Below are positions 812-64,000 of a DNA stretch of 64,000 bases, piece after piece (position 1 is the first letter of the stretch; the number at the start of each line of letters is the position of its first letter). The DNA is from an uncultured Clostridia bacterium (GTDB lineage: Bacteria; Bacillota; Clostridia; Oscillospirales; Acutalibacteraceae). The notes under the pieces are model-generated. The model was not told the DNA's origin and ran no database searches. It worked only from the letters and a program-made list of their open reading frames with translations. Location: NCBI GenBank assembly GCA_947630285.1, contig CANRHD010000001.1, positions 186,001 to 250,000 of the forward strand. The letters run 5' to 3'. Position numbers and translations under genes: made by a program.

Positions 812-3800
812 TTATTTGAGTAAATCAACCCTTGTTTCAAAAAGTCCGGTTACGGATTTGTTGATAAGTACGGCGGAGCTTACCTTGTCAAGGGTTTTAT
901 TAATGTATATTGATCCCGAATTCTTAAGTCCGCCGATTAAGGTCAAATCGGCTGTTTGCCTGTCGCATTTAAAAAGCTTGAGCATCTGTTCTAAAAGCTC
1001 ACACTGTTTCAAAAGCGAAAGGGACGCAAATTTTTCCCCGCCTTTTAAAATGACATTACTTGCAGAGTCAAGCAATCTTTTATAAACTGGCTGCTGTATT
1101 TTATCCGCAAGCACATTATAAAGCTGAATATTTTTTTCACAGCTTAACTCCACATATTCTTTATCTTTAAATTTGCGTAGGGATATAGGCAGCTCACGCT
1201 GCGCATTTCTGCAACTTTCAACATATTTGAGCATAGCTTTAAGGTATTTTTCGTATTCGGGGTCTAAAACGAGCTGATAATTATGTTTGCAAGAAAGGTA
1301 ATTATTAAATCTTCCGGTAACAAAAAGGTTTTTTCCGTCCACATTCAACTGCTGGTCGAATAGTATTTTTGGGCAAATAATTTTAGGCTCTTCAAGTCCC
1401 AAAACCTCCTCGCAATACTTAATCGGGTCTTTTTCATAAAGGGATTTTTCATAAATATATACGGGTTCTATCGATCTTCTGCGTTTTTTCTTGCCCTGAT
1501 GTTCGACTGCAAAGAAATATGCGCCCGATATTTTATTATAGCCTCCGTATTTTTCTATTTCCTTTCCTATCTTTATTGGAAGCTGACCCTTTCCGGCAGG
1601 CATAATCTGCACATCGTATAACGCTCCCTTAGTCTCATGCGCCCTTCTTGATACGATAATGTTATTCTTGCTCATATACTTTTTGACGGTTTTGATAGAC
1701 TCGGTCTTATCCCATGCGCCCTTGACATCATAGTCAAATACCTTGTTAAGGCTGTATTCGTACTTCTCATCATCTTCTTTAGGACCTCGGTTTTTTAAAT
1801 AGAAAAAGAATTTTTCCGTAAATTTGGTATCGTAGACATTCCCGACTACAATGTTAAGATAAGCGTCCTTTGCATGGTGAAAATCGTTTAATTCCCTGCA
1901 CTTTACAAAACCAAAATCATTTTTAAACCTGGAAACATTATTTGCTTTTGAATAGACAATTTTTGTTTCGGGATAATTCTCCGTCAACAGCTGTGCTACC
2001 GCCTTGGTAGACTGAGCGGTTTCGACAAGCTGCCTTTGTACGAAGCTTGAAAGCTCCTCTGCGGTCAAAGGATAGTTCCTTGTAAGCCTTTCATATTTTT
2101 TCTCGCTTATAAGGCCTTTGTCCAAAAGTATTTTCCAGTAGCCGCTCATATTTTGACGCCACGAATTATTAATGGGATAATTATTGCCTTTATCTTCGTT
2201 GTATTTTCTCTTTACCAGCACACGGTTATCAAGGCTGTCGTCAATAATTTTTGACTGAGGGAAAATATGGTCTACATCGTAATTTTTATCGATTTCCTCA
2301 ATCTCGATTTTCTCGCCCGTATACATACATTTTCCCATTTGCGTGTAATAAAGATAAAGCGCATCGTGGCGAAGCTTTGATTCCTCGGTCTTTTCGAGGC
2401 TCTCATACAGCTCTCCGCTGTCTATTTTACACGCCTTGTAGAGTTCAATCAGCTTTTCTTTACGGCTCTTGGTGCGCTCCTTTTTGTTATCAAGCGTACC
2501 CCTTGTAACCTCTACAAATATTTTCTTGGGAGCGGACTTTTTAATATCGACGATTTCATCAATAATTTTCATAGCCTGCAAAATGCTTCTCTTTACAAGC
2601 GTAGGAACATACATATCTTCAATTTGACTTTTTATGCCCTCTTTTACGGGATACTTTTCGTCAAGATAAGCTTTGGCGTTTTCCGCAAATTGATATTCGT
2701 CACTCAAAAGCTGATTTAAATTGCAGTTGGTTTCACGGAGCATCTCGATTATGCTGTGAGCCTCGCCGTTTTCATCTGCCGAATAGATTTCCGTTAAGAA
2801 CTTTTTTGAAAGCCTGCCCCAGTCCTTATATCTAAGCCTGCAAACATATGAAATATCGTTTTCATCAAGCGCTTTACAGTTTTTACGAAGCCAATTTCTA
2901 AGCAGTTTTTTATCATCGCCGAAAACAAGTATCCTCTGTATTATCTCCTCTACCATTTCTTTGTCGCCGGTTTTATCAAGGATTTTCTTAAAATCATGGT
3001 AGGAGTTAAGCTTTGATTTAACTGTATCGTCAATTCCGGAAATTTTGTCCTCCTCTTTTACCAGGCCGAGCGACATCAAGTATTTTTTAACGCCTTTTTT
3101 AGTTAATTTTGATTTACTTTTGACAAACAGATCGTTATAAATCCGCTTTTTAACATCAACGGGAATAAGATTACCGTTGACCTTAATCGTATTAATTTCG
3201 TTTAAAACGCAGTACTCGCTGTAAAGCAGAGAATCCTTGGGCAATACATACTCGCCCGTATAGGAACACCTGTTTATAAGATTTATTATGAAATTTTCGG
3301 CGCTTTTTTCAATGTCAACTACCCTGTCAAAATTCCAAGGGTAAATTTTTTCGTCCTTTCTGACAAGCCATGCTTTTTCGGAAGAAGCGTTAAGCGGTCC
3401 TACATAGTAAGGTATTCTGAATTTAAAAATACTTATAATTTTTTCCTTTACGCTTATTCCTTCGGAGTCGGTTTCATTGAGGAACGGCAGATATTTTGAG
3501 GAGTTTTCAAGTATTTTTTTAAGCTCTTTTAAGTGGAGCTGAATGGGTATAACGCTGTTGTCCGAGCTTCTTAACTTGGGCAGGAACTCGTTTGCTTTGA
3601 TTTTTTCATATATTTCCCTATATTTCTCATCGGCCGCCAAATCCGGCAATTCCTTTAGAAGGAATTTGCAAAAATCCTCCTGACTGCACGGGCTATCGCC
3701 GCTTTCAAGATTGCGGCGGCCGTATGCGCTGAAGTTCTTTAAATCTTTTGACTTTTGAGAAAAAATACGCTTATATTCAGACGGACGGTTTTCCTTAACA

Positions 3801-22502: not shown

Positions 22503-22544
22503 AAAAGTAACCTATCTGTCATCAGAATTTTATAATAATTAATA

Positions 22545-22796
22545 ATTAAAGTTTTCGGCCGCATTTTTCAAAAAGAGATTCCCCTGTCAGGGGAAATGTC
22601 TGCGAAGCGGACAAAAGGGTAAGGGTCGAGGGGCAAAGCCCTCGTCGCAGTCCGCAGACTGCGAAACACCTGTACTTCATAAAGCGCAGGAGGGGCGCAA
22701 AACAGTTCGGTGAACTGTTTTGCGTTGGGGAACCCTCGCCGAGGGGTCCCCGTAAGCTTATTCCTTTTATTCATACTCCGGCCGAAAACTTTTAAT
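22545..22796 (+). repeat. Structured repeat element, copy A
   Basis: One of four related non-coding elements. It has GAGGGGCAAAGCCCTC, GCAGTCCGCAGACTGC, a perfect 13-bp stem (CGCAAAACAGTTC with its complement, three-base loop) and GGGGAACCC...GGGGTCCCC in that order. It carries the long inner module with ATTCCCCTGTCAGGGGAAAT. Unlike the others its two ends are inverted repeats (ATTAAAGTTTTCGGCCG at 22545-22561 and its near complement at 22779-22796). It sits after the ACT gene and before the operon terminator. The wider gap 22503-22918 holds this, that terminator and the nitroreductase leader. Confidence 0.85.
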
Positions 22797-22822
22797 ATTT
22801 TCCAACATTTTATGCCAAAATG

Positions 22823-23431: not shown

Positions 23432-23460
23432 GCTTTATACCGCAGATGAGGTAAAAATAG

Positions 23461-23487
23461 GAGCGTGGGATTTGACCCACGCTCTTT
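23461..23487 (+). terminator. Terminator hairpin, gene-proximal duplicate at copy B
   Basis: GAGCGTGGG/CCCACGCTC 9-bp stem, six-base loop, only three T. Identical over 27 bases to 23723-23749, which keeps the T-rich tail. This copy has lost its tail to the repeat. Confidence 0.85.
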
Positions 23488-23722
23488 GCGTGCAGAAAAA
23501 GCAGTTTTACAAAGTCTACGGCGCAATAGAAATCAGCTCACGGGGAACCCCCGGCGAGGGTTCCCCAACGCAAAACAGTTCACCGAACTGTTTTGCGCCC
23601 CTCCTGCGCTTTATGAAGTACAGGTATTTCGCAGTCTGCGGACTGCGACGGGGGCTTTGCCCCTCGACCCTACCGCCTTTTGAAAAAGGCGGCCGAAAAC
23701 TTTTAATACTATTACAAAACGA
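23488..23722 (-). repeat. Structured repeat element, copy B
   Basis: A 235-bp copy in the opposite orientation to copies A, C and D. Read on the minus strand it shows TTTTCGGCCGCC, the short inner module (GCGGT instead of the long one), GGGGCAAAGCCCC, GCAGTCCGCAGACTGC, the 13-bp stem around GGT, and a perfect GGGGAACCC/GGGTTCCCC stem. It is bracketed by 27-bp direct repeats of the nitroreductase terminator hairpin. The gap 23432-23766 holds only this and the two hairpins. Confidence 0.88.
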
Positions 23723-23749
23723 GAGCGTGGGATTTGACCCACGCTCTTT
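23723..23749 (+). terminator. Terminator hairpin, distal duplicate at copy B
   Basis: Same 27 bases as 23461-23487, here followed by AATTTTATT, so it is the copy with the full terminator tail. It may also serve the convergent lipoprotein gene. Confidence 0.85.
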
Positions 23750-44456: not shown

Positions 44457-44642
44457 ATGGCAAAATGTGATTTCTGCGGAAAAGATGTTGCTTTCGGCAT
44501 TAAAGTTTCTCATTCACACAGAAGGTCAAACAGAACCTGGAAGCCTAATGTAAAAAGAGTTAGGGCAATCGTAAACGGCTCTCCTAAAAGAGTTTATGCT
44601 TGCACTCGTTGCCTTCGTTCGGGCAAGGTTACAAGAGCTTAA
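44457..44642 (+). CDS. rpmB: 50S ribosomal protein L28 (zinc-binding form)
   Basis: A 61-residue ribosomal protein. It has both CxxC pairs (CDFCGK at the N-terminus, CTRCLRSG at the end) that bind zinc, so it is the zinc-type L28; zinc-starved cells often keep a second Cys-less copy elsewhere. AAAGGAGG lies upstream. It is a single-gene unit with promoter and terminator. Confidence 0.97.
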   Translation: MAKCDFCGKDVAFGIKVSHSHRRSNRTWKPNVKRVRAIVNGSPKRVYACTRCLRSGKVTRA

Positions 44643-44662
44643 CTTAATTGCTGAATGAATTT

Positions 44663-44690
44663 GCGCTCACTAAAAAGTGAGCGTTTTTTC
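44663..44690 (+). terminator. rpmB terminator
   Basis: CGCTCACT/AGTGAGCG stem (44664-44671, 44676-44683) followed by six T. Confidence 0.9.
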
Positions 44691-44721
44691 TTTTGCCGAT
44701 TTAGTCTTTTGTGCAAAACAA

Positions 44722-44742
44722 AAGGGCGTATAAAAACGCCCT
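44722..44742 (-). terminator. Terminator hairpin, distal duplicate at copy C
   Basis: AGGGCGT/ACGCCCT stem, six-base loop. On the minus strand it is followed by TTTTGTTTTG, so this is the copy with the terminator tail. Identical over 21 bases to 45003-45023. Confidence 0.82.
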
Positions 44743-45002
44743 CAGCCTGTTGATAAACTGTTTTACGATAGCAAAATGTTCAAAAGTTTTTGTCCGTCTT
44801 TTTTCAAAAAGGCGGTGGGGTCGAGGGGCAAAGCCCCCGGCGCAGTCCGCAGACTGCGAAACACCTGTGCTTCAAAAAGCGCAGGAGGGGCGCAAAACAG
44901 TTCAGTGAACTGTTTTGCGATGGGGAACCCTCGCCGGGGGTTTCCCATAATTTTATTTCTTTTGTGCATATTGCCAAGCGACACATACTTTTTTACACGC
45001 TG
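44743..45002 (+). repeat. Structured repeat element, copy C
   Basis: A 260-bp copy with the short inner module. Parts in order: CAGCCTGTTGATAAACTG end, AAAAGTTTTTGTCCG, GGGGCAAAGCCCC (44825-44837), CGCAGTC/GACTGCG (44841-44858), a perfect 13-bp stem with loop AGT (44891-44919), GGGAACCC/GGGTTTCCC (44923-44946) and an AT-rich end finishing TTTTTTACACGC. It is bracketed by 21-bp direct repeats of the pduL terminator hairpin. It fills the gap 44691-45042 together with those hairpins. Confidence 0.88.
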
Positions 45003-45023
45003 AAGGGCGTATAAAAACGCCCT
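45003..45023 (-). terminator. Terminator hairpin, gene-proximal duplicate at copy C
   Basis: Same 21 bases as 44722-44742, here directly after the pduL stop but without a T tail on the minus strand, because the repeat follows. Confidence 0.82.
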
Positions 45024-45042
45024 TAAATTTTGATGTTTTTTA

Positions 45043-45618
45043 TCAGTCAAGTATAATTCCCATTGTGCCGGCAGGTGCAAGAACCGCATTCGACTCGTCG
45101 GTATCAATGTGCATGGCAAGCGAAAAGTTCGGGCTTACACGGACGACCGTATCCGCAAACACAAGCGAGCGCTCCGCAGAATCAATTTTAACGGAAACGA
45201 CCTGCTTATCCTTAAGGCCGTATTTTTCGGCGTCCTCCGGGGTCATATGAATGTGGCGCTTTGCAACGATTACGCCCTCTTTGAGTTCAACCTCGCCCTT
45301 AGGCCCTACAAGCTTGCAGGCTCCGCTGCCCTCAATGTCCCCCGATTCTCTGACCGGAGCTTTAACGCCTATAGAACGGGCGTCGGAGGCCGAAATTTCA
45401 ACCTGACAGGCGCTTCTTACGGGGCCGAGAATTGAAACTGCCGGAAATGATGATTTTTCACCGATTACCTGTACCCTTTCCTCGCAGGCAAACTGCCCGG
45501 GCTGTGAAAGGTCTTTTTTCTTTGTAAGCTCATAGCCCTCGCCGAAAAGAATTTCAAGAGCCTCCTTTGTAACATGCACATGGCGTGCGGAGGTTTCAAC
45601 CAAAACTGTTTTTTCCAT
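45043..45618 (-). CDS. pduL: Phosphate propanoyltransferase (PduL family phosphotransacylase)
   Basis: Converts acyl-CoA and phosphate to acyl phosphate (acetyl or propanoyl). The 191-residue protein has the paired PduL domains with zinc-binding histidines in ETSARHVHVT (near 10) and IVAKRHIHMTPEDAE (near 118). No microcompartment shell genes lie nearby, and there is no N-terminal encapsulation extension, so it is probably a soluble cytosolic enzyme that serves acetate formation from sugar acids of the neighbouring uronate genes. The substrate preference is inferred. Confidence 0.92.
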   Translation of the reverse strand: MEKTVLVETSARHVHVTKEALEILFGEGYELTKKKDLSQPGQFACEERVQVIGEKSSFPAVSILGPVRSACQVEISASDARSIGVKAPVRESGDIEGSGACKLVGPKGEVELKEGVIVAKRHIHMTPEDAEKYGLKDKQVVSVKIDSAERSLVFADTVVRVSPNFSLAMHIDTDESNAVLAPAGTMGIILD

Positions 45619-63858: not shown

Positions 63859-64000
63859 CAGCCTGTAGATAAACTGTTTTGCGATAGCAAAATGTCCAAA
63901 AGTTTTCGCCCGCCTTTTACAAAAAGAGATTCCCCTGTCAGGGGAAATGTCTGCGAAGCGGACAAAAGGGTAAGGGTCGAGGGGCAAAGCCCTCGGCGCA
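63859..64000 (+). repeat. Structured repeat element, copy D (cut by window edge)
   Basis: It starts with the same CAGCCTGT-GATAAACTG end as copy C, directly after a hairpin, then TTTTGCGATAGCAAAA, AAAAGTTTTCGCCCGCC, the long inner module as in copy A (ATTCCCCTGTCAGGGGAAAT, TGTCTGCGAAGCGGACA) and GAGGGGCAAAGCCCTC. The right half lies beyond the window. Confidence 0.85.

Follow-up and report, generated by a model that had tools for sequence, protein, structure and literature searches.

The intergenic region between rpmB and pduL raises the question of how a short repetitive element came to carry the same complete hairpin on both of its sides, and what kind of agent put it there.

Hairpin repeats at copy C and the corresponding empty sites

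In the window, which is the whole 64,000-nucleotide stretch of DNA that was analyzed, the sequence AAGGGCGTATAAAAACGCCCT is present at 44722 to 44742 and again at 45003 to 45023, with 21 of 21 bases identical. The initial annotation had described an exact 21-bp duplication of a hairpin at this position, and both parts of that description hold, as the two repeats are identical and the repeat forms a hairpin on folding. The 260 bp between the repeats (44743 to 45002, plus strand) are copy C of the element. It begins with CAGCCTG and finishes with CACGCTG, its ends (CAGCCTGTTGATAA and, as the reverse complement, CAGCGTGTAAAAAA) resemble those of the IS1182 family, and no ORF of more than 118 amino acids in the mechanical ORF list overlaps it.

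The two neighboring genes converge toward copy C. On the plus strand, rpmB (44457 to 44642; ribosomal protein L28, Pfam Ribosomal_L28) is followed by its own terminator-like hairpin, read from the sequence at about 44665 to 44692. On the minus strand lies pduL (45043 to 45618; phosphate propanoyltransferase, Pfam PTAC), the downstream hairpin of which was the insertion target. Along the minus strand, pduL is followed by the right, proximal hairpin copy (45023 to 45003) without a T run, the element, the left, distal copy of the same hairpin (44742 to 44722), and then TTTTGTTTTG, an arrangement that had already been described and that was found again on reading the sequence.

PduL was found in 38 of the 39 genomes of the genus that were searched, including the host, and the downstream stretch was read in 30 of them. 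The most similar sister genome found (97% identity) lacks the element at this site: downstream of pduL come a single hairpin (AAGGGCGTGTGAAAACGCCCTT), then the terminator hairpin of rpmB, then rpmB itself. A second site in the window was compared in the same manner. Copy B (23488 to 23715, minus strand), which has a recognizable right end (GCGTGCAGAAAAA) and a degenerate left end, lies between a left hairpin repeat at 23454 to 23487 (AGCGTGGG...CCCACGCT) and a right hairpin repeat at 23716 to 23749 that matches it at 91% over 34 nt; the sister genome has no element at this site and one hairpin, with the same outer stem. Thus, at the copy B and copy C sites there is one hairpin without the element and two with it. 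A further copy starts on the plus strand at 63859 and leaves the window at 64000; in the genome it is located at C1:249859-250434, with 576 nt between recognized ends, and its hairpin-like flanking repeats are 28 to 29 nt long.

Flanks of the element throughout the host genome

The host genome, a draft of 2,026,620 bases in 33 contigs, was searched for other copies. Of 123 candidates, 40 were scored; among the places listed, the element was present in near-full or large partial length at 40, one of them in two pieces, and short matches to an internal palindrome were also seen. The element end motif was found at 59 places when at most one mismatch was allowed. Both ends were defined in 46 copies, a set from which copy B, as well as copy A described below, was left out. 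Sixteen left-end rows lacking a recognized right end were dropped; two of these rows, C11:53705 and C22:28077, coincide in part with copies that were counted. Duplicates of one copy, either overlapping or in reverse, were also removed. Of the dropped rows, L025 is flanked by a hairpin at each end and L009 at one end.

For each copy, the left and right flanks (about 75 nt) were aligned with one another, and alignment of each left flank with the right flanks of the other copies served as the control (2070 mismatched pairs), which gave a 99.9% level of 14 and a maximum score of 18. The score of copy C was 21. Because repeats above the 99.9% level were present in 36 of the 46 copies, the flanking repeats are not due to chance.

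The significant repeats were 19 to 40 bp long (median, 28 bp; n = 36). Their sequences were unrelated between sites, and 34 of the 36 were hairpin-forming (MFE under -7 kcal/mol), the exceptions being C27 and C8:65903; folding z-scores were under -2 for 32 of the 36. Repeat length correlated with hairpin length as predicted from only the right flank (Spearman rho, 0.84; n = 36), with a difference of at most 5 nt in 33 of 36 cases. The hairpins also filled the repeats closely. No more than 2 unpaired bases were present at the 5′ foot in 30 of the 34 hairpin repeats and at the 3′ foot in 32 of the 34, and in 27 of the 34 the left repeat abutted the nominal left end of the element exactly. The initial annotation had argued from two sites that chance was improbable, that the repeats were complete stem-loops of unrelated sequence and that their length followed hairpin size rather than being fixed. 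The tabulation of flanks that it had proposed, carried out here on the 46 two-ended copies, bears out all three points, as neither a general lack of repeats nor a fixed repeat length was found.

Ten of the 46 copies were under the threshold. One of these, C13:24039, is flanked on each side by a hairpin, but the two have diverged; no significant repeat was detected in the other 9, two of which (C17:18272 and C25:19563) have a hairpin on one side only. Two short copies of 109 bp, L053 and L057 (C18:18757 and C24:9154), have perfect ends and no long hairpin repeat, the repeats at their ends being 11 bp at most.

The two hairpins of a pair differed at 11 of 604 stem positions versus 15 of 223 unpaired positions (pairs of unequal length left out). 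The lower frequency of differences in stems suggests that the stems may be under continued selection, perhaps with both hairpin copies still useful. The outer sides of the repeats often retain a tail, as judged from the adjoining 8 nt: at least 5 A's precede the left copy in 18 of 36 cases, at least 5 T's follow the right copy in 28 of 36, and both are present in 13 of 36.

The gene context of the 46 copies, assigned with a simple rule that ignored ORFs under 80 amino acids, fits gene ends: 18 were convergent, 19 tandem and 2 divergent, with 6 within a long mechanical ORF and 1 at an edge. Of the 19 tandem copies, 11 share the direction of the genes and 8 have the opposite direction; the 8 wrongly include copy C because rpmB, with 61 amino acids, was below the 80-amino-acid limit. 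Thus, no fixed orientation to the upstream gene was seen in tandem contexts, and the earlier proposal of a common orientation, made from two copies, was not sustained. In the accessible text of a large IS survey, IS1182 elements are reported as over-represented between convergent genes (PMC9208149).

IS1182-family elements with related ends

The initial annotation had named no agent. The element ends point to a clade of IS1182-family transposases. The IS1182 profile NF033551 was matched at an E value of ≤0.001 in 8 of 59 relatives and at ≤1e-60 in 25 of 295 genomes of the order. Two of the elements detected with this profile were run against Pfam and matched DDE_Tnp_1_6, DDE_Tnp_1 and DUF772; the profile and these domains are shared by the CAG-ended partners and the IS1182 family in general. 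Several of the IS1182-profile elements begin with CAGCCTGTCGAAAAA or near variants, and the ends of the host element, CAGYCTGTCGATAA and CAGCGTGTAGAAAA, match the IS1182 ends CAGCCTGTCGAAAAA and CAGCCTGTAGAAAAAC (by eye, over only about 15 bp). CAG ends together with complete hairpins repeated on both sides were present at 7 of 32 loci (L079, L115, L116, L117, L121, L122 and L136); the flanking hairpins of L079 match at 94%.

When 30 transposases were placed in a tree, all 11 rows labeled as CAG-ended formed one group that contained no otherwise-labeled rows (support, 98; quick method with SH-aLRT support only). A wider group of 14 rows (support, 97) adds L114 and L078, which have CAG ends and a hairpin on each side, and L140, for which no CAG end pair was seen in the end examinations. 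Other IS1182 clades of the same order have ends (GGGGCTGT.. and GCTGTTGACAAA) unlike those of the CAG-ended clade, and no hairpin repeat was found directly at those ends. In one of these other-ended elements, L123, a 31-nt direct repeat and hairpin-like repeats outside both ends were observed (1244 to 1367 and 3013 to 3143). Three GCTGTTGACAAA-ended elements (L120, L123 and L138) have inverted repeats of 26 to 36 nt that extend past the ends; by analogy with IS1272, these elements might perhaps have inserted into a palindrome or replaced one.

A profile built from eight transposases of the CAG-ended clade was used to search named genomes, and the best 80 of 523 loci were collected. A strict end-motif finder recognized both ends in 41 of the 80, of which 37 were kept and 4 were dropped for flanks under 60 nt; in the other 39 the strict motif was not matched at both ends. 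The same hairpin was present on both sides of 24 of the 37 judged elements, a different hairpin on each side of 12, and a hairpin on one side only of 1; none had a hairpin on neither side. As a background figure, 147 of 740 positions picked at random in these loci are starts of hairpins with at least 7 pairs. The repeats of the 24 same-hairpin elements, which include Gemmiger, Anaerotruncus, Romboutsia, Metabacillus, Priestia and Bacillus records, were 21 to 38 bp long, and their length correlated with that of the hairpin (rho, 0.96; n = 24). Some of the 80 loci are copies within one genome (Romboutsia, Thermoanaerobacter). The named set and the survey of the order appear to overlap in genomes (L213 and L115, for example, have the same flanks), and their counts are therefore not additive.

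An earlier TIR finder had judged 65 of the 80 loci, the other 15 being at contig ends, and detected significant end repeats in 26, all within the 48 that have CAG at both ends. Since hairpin arms are themselves inverted repeats, this finder mis-set some ends, and the motif-bound finder was used for that reason. Some of the 39 loci that failed the motif have hairpin repeats according to the TIR finder (e.g., L226, L242, L276, L277, L279, L286 and, from Pseudoflavonifractor sp. An44, L272).

Two of the 12 elements with different hairpins can be accounted for. L245 has a mis-set end, and a 23-bp hairpin repeat was detected there by the first finder. L292, from Romboutsia timonensis, belongs to a longer stretch that runs on for about 2 kb and contains two more right ends, at distances of about 1 and 2 kb from that of L292; the farther of the two bears a hairpin matching the left side (loci L292, L295 and L296). 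This arrangement suggests a composite unit that may have moved as one. The other ten are unexplained. In G234, a genome of the host's family, the five IS copies that were read are identical over 1526 bp. Four of them have exact hairpin repeats at their ends, of 20, 21, 22 and 30 bp, and one transposase therefore makes duplications of different lengths. The fifth, which is outside the 37-element set, has two different hairpins; the right-hand one has a single further occurrence in this genome, where it adjoins the left end of an IS copy on the second contig, and it looks as if flanks may have been exchanged between two copies. A later or composite origin is thus plausible for the mismatched hairpins of both L292 and this fifth copy.

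No IS1182 transposase was detected when the 33 contigs of the host assembly were searched with PF13751 and NF033551, nor was a longer autonomous element seen behind the ends at 30 of the 59 end-pattern places plus further places. The autonomous partner may be absent from the host, lost, or missing from the draft. L042 (1501 to 1811) and L059 (1501 to 1815), two copies that each reach the end of a contig, share the same foreign nested insert, which begins with TGAACTGCACCCC or GAACTGCACCCC and within which both contigs end; the insert has no identifiable transposase and looks like another insertion sequence, presumably IS3-like. The missing partner counts against this reading, but MITEs may outlive their autonomous partners, and for this reason it is not treated here as disqualifying the element as a MITE. 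The element is short (about 260 bp), is present in many copies and has no transposase gene, and it shares with the autonomous elements both the type of target and the direct repetition of whole hairpins.

A congener, G031, has an IS1182 remnant (L081/L202) with a CAG end beside a hairpin; the remnant matches the G234 transposase at 69% over 143 residues. The same genome has 16 places with CAGCGTGTCGAAAAA or CAGCCTGTCGAAAAA, most of which apparently belong to another repeat with CAG ends; four copies of it were viewed (L188, L195, L208 and L212), and all four have, by eye, a hairpin at the left end.

Target recognition and rival explanations

Copy C is, with a probability of roughly 85%, a MITE mobilized in trans by a DDE transposase of the CAG-ended IS1182 clade that targets palindromes and duplicates the whole hairpin, because its ends match those of an IS1182 clade that also duplicates hairpins. 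In the mechanism that we propose, the CAG..TGTCGAAAAA-like inverted repeats at the element ends would be acted on in trans by such a transposase, the targets of which would be DNA palindromes, mostly intrinsic terminators. The transposase would recognize the palindrome in the form of an extruded cruciform or of a single-stranded DNA hairpin. On each strand, one of the two element 3′ ends would be joined to the 5′ foot of the hairpin, and gap filling would then copy the whole hairpin to both sides of the element. Since the four feet of a cruciform are adjacent at any arm length, a fixed active-site geometry would give hairpin-sized duplications of 19 to 40 bp.

The length of the target duplication made by a DDE transposase is usually treated as constant. 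No one constant length was found here, either for the MITE (19 to 40 bp) or for the identical IS copies (20, 21, 22 and 30 bp). Duplication length follows the hairpin over 19 to 40 bp in many separate insertions, with two empty sites and with autonomous elements that behave alike. It is apparently the shape of the target DNA, and not a fixed ruler in the enzyme, that determines this length. We incline, with some reserve, to a broader proposal, that the whole clade, from Oscillospiraceae-type MAGs to the Gemmiger, Romboutsia and Bacillus records, never measures its target. These transposases would dock at the four-way junction that extrusion of a palindrome creates, join the two 5′ feet and duplicate a hairpin of any length, so that a terminator is copied and not destroyed, and sister lineages such as IS1272 would represent the opposite strand choice (3′ feet, with loss of the hairpin) of the same structure-directed reaction. 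If this is correct, terminators would be a safe haven for MITEs of this clade.

Alternatively, a transposase dimer that senses sequence symmetry might bind and cut a linear double-stranded palindrome, with a stagger that follows the symmetry and without extrusion. DNA shape and sequence symmetry are inseparable from sequences alone, and the few copies with only short, weakly palindromic, sub-threshold repeats (e.g., AATTAATT) are consistent with this alternative. However, staggers of 19 to 40 bp for the MITE, and of 20, 21, 22 and 30 bp for identical IS copies, would demand variable protein geometry, and no common motif among the targets was apparent by eye. Recognition of symmetry in linear DNA thus seems a rather unlikely explanation, and recognition of an extruded or single-stranded hairpin is preferred.

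It is very improbable that the element took the place of a removed target hairpin, as in the stem-loop replacement known from IS1272, even though the transposase family and the type of target are the same (PMC4923244, PMC5678879). The hairpin is present twice at the sites studied here and once at the empty site, which contradicts replacement for copies B and C. According to the available portions of the reports on IS1272/TnSha1 of staphylococci, these members of the IS1182 family target hairpins, several of them confirmed terminators, with no sequence consensus (PMC4923244, PMC5678879), and their insertion deletes part of the hairpin with no target duplication (PMC4923244). The element studied here, which is likewise linked to the IS1182 family and to hairpin targets, differs in that the whole hairpin is duplicated rather than partly deleted or replaced. 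Duplication of the whole stem-loop was drawn as another possible pathway (Fig. 13b of PMC5678879), and the cases described here fit that second pathway. They provide genome-scale support for a pathway drawn in that figure only as a possibility and make it testable with a simple assay.

The hairpins could be thought to belong to the element itself, as they abut the element ends in most copies with a significant repeat. However, their sequence varies by site, and no mismatched flank pair scored above 18 (99.9% scored no higher than 14). This explanation is refuted at copies B and C by the match of their hairpins to the empty sites of the sister genome, and it is extremely unlikely for the element as a whole. 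Group IIC introns insert at terminator hairpins, a preference that would suit an RNA-based agent such as an intron-like retroelement inserting after terminators, but these introns are RNA-based, with no inverted-repeat ends and no target duplication, whereas the element has inverted-repeat ends of the kind that also bound DDE transposase genes, has a long target duplication, and gave no Rfam match in 44640 to 45060 up to E = 1, so that an origin of the copies from such an agent is scarcely credible.

A 4-bp repeat is listed for the IS1182 element ISCaa15 in the accessible part of that report (PMC3196728). In Methanosarcina acetivorans, the IS1182-related MITEs derived from ISMac2 are 160 and 169 bp long, with values of 4 and 0 in the last table column, taken here to be the DR size (PMC3852290). 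These are short, non-autonomous IS1182 relatives like the element studied here, and the available part of their description does not mention hairpin duplication (PMC3852290). Some IS1182 members target palindromes according to a 2015 review, as reported in the available text of PMC4923244. No report of whole-hairpin target duplication of the kind observed here was found in the portion of the literature covered by the search. ISfinder-type tables reportedly give variable direct repeats for IS1182 members, and parts of this behavior may therefore be familiar to curators already. Together the insertions form a natural map of the palindromes that transposition uses in living cells, and they illustrate a parasite after whose insertion host transcripts may still end in a tailed hairpin.

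The remaining copy in the window, copy A (22540 to 22799, plus strand), shares a core with the element and has other inverted ends (AGTTTTCGGCC). CAG ends and a hairpin duplication were looked for at copy A and were not seen, and the sister genome likewise has no element at this site. Many congeners match the element only at core positions of about 40 to 204, and for this reason the core may be an older repeat that was captured by a CAG-ended element.
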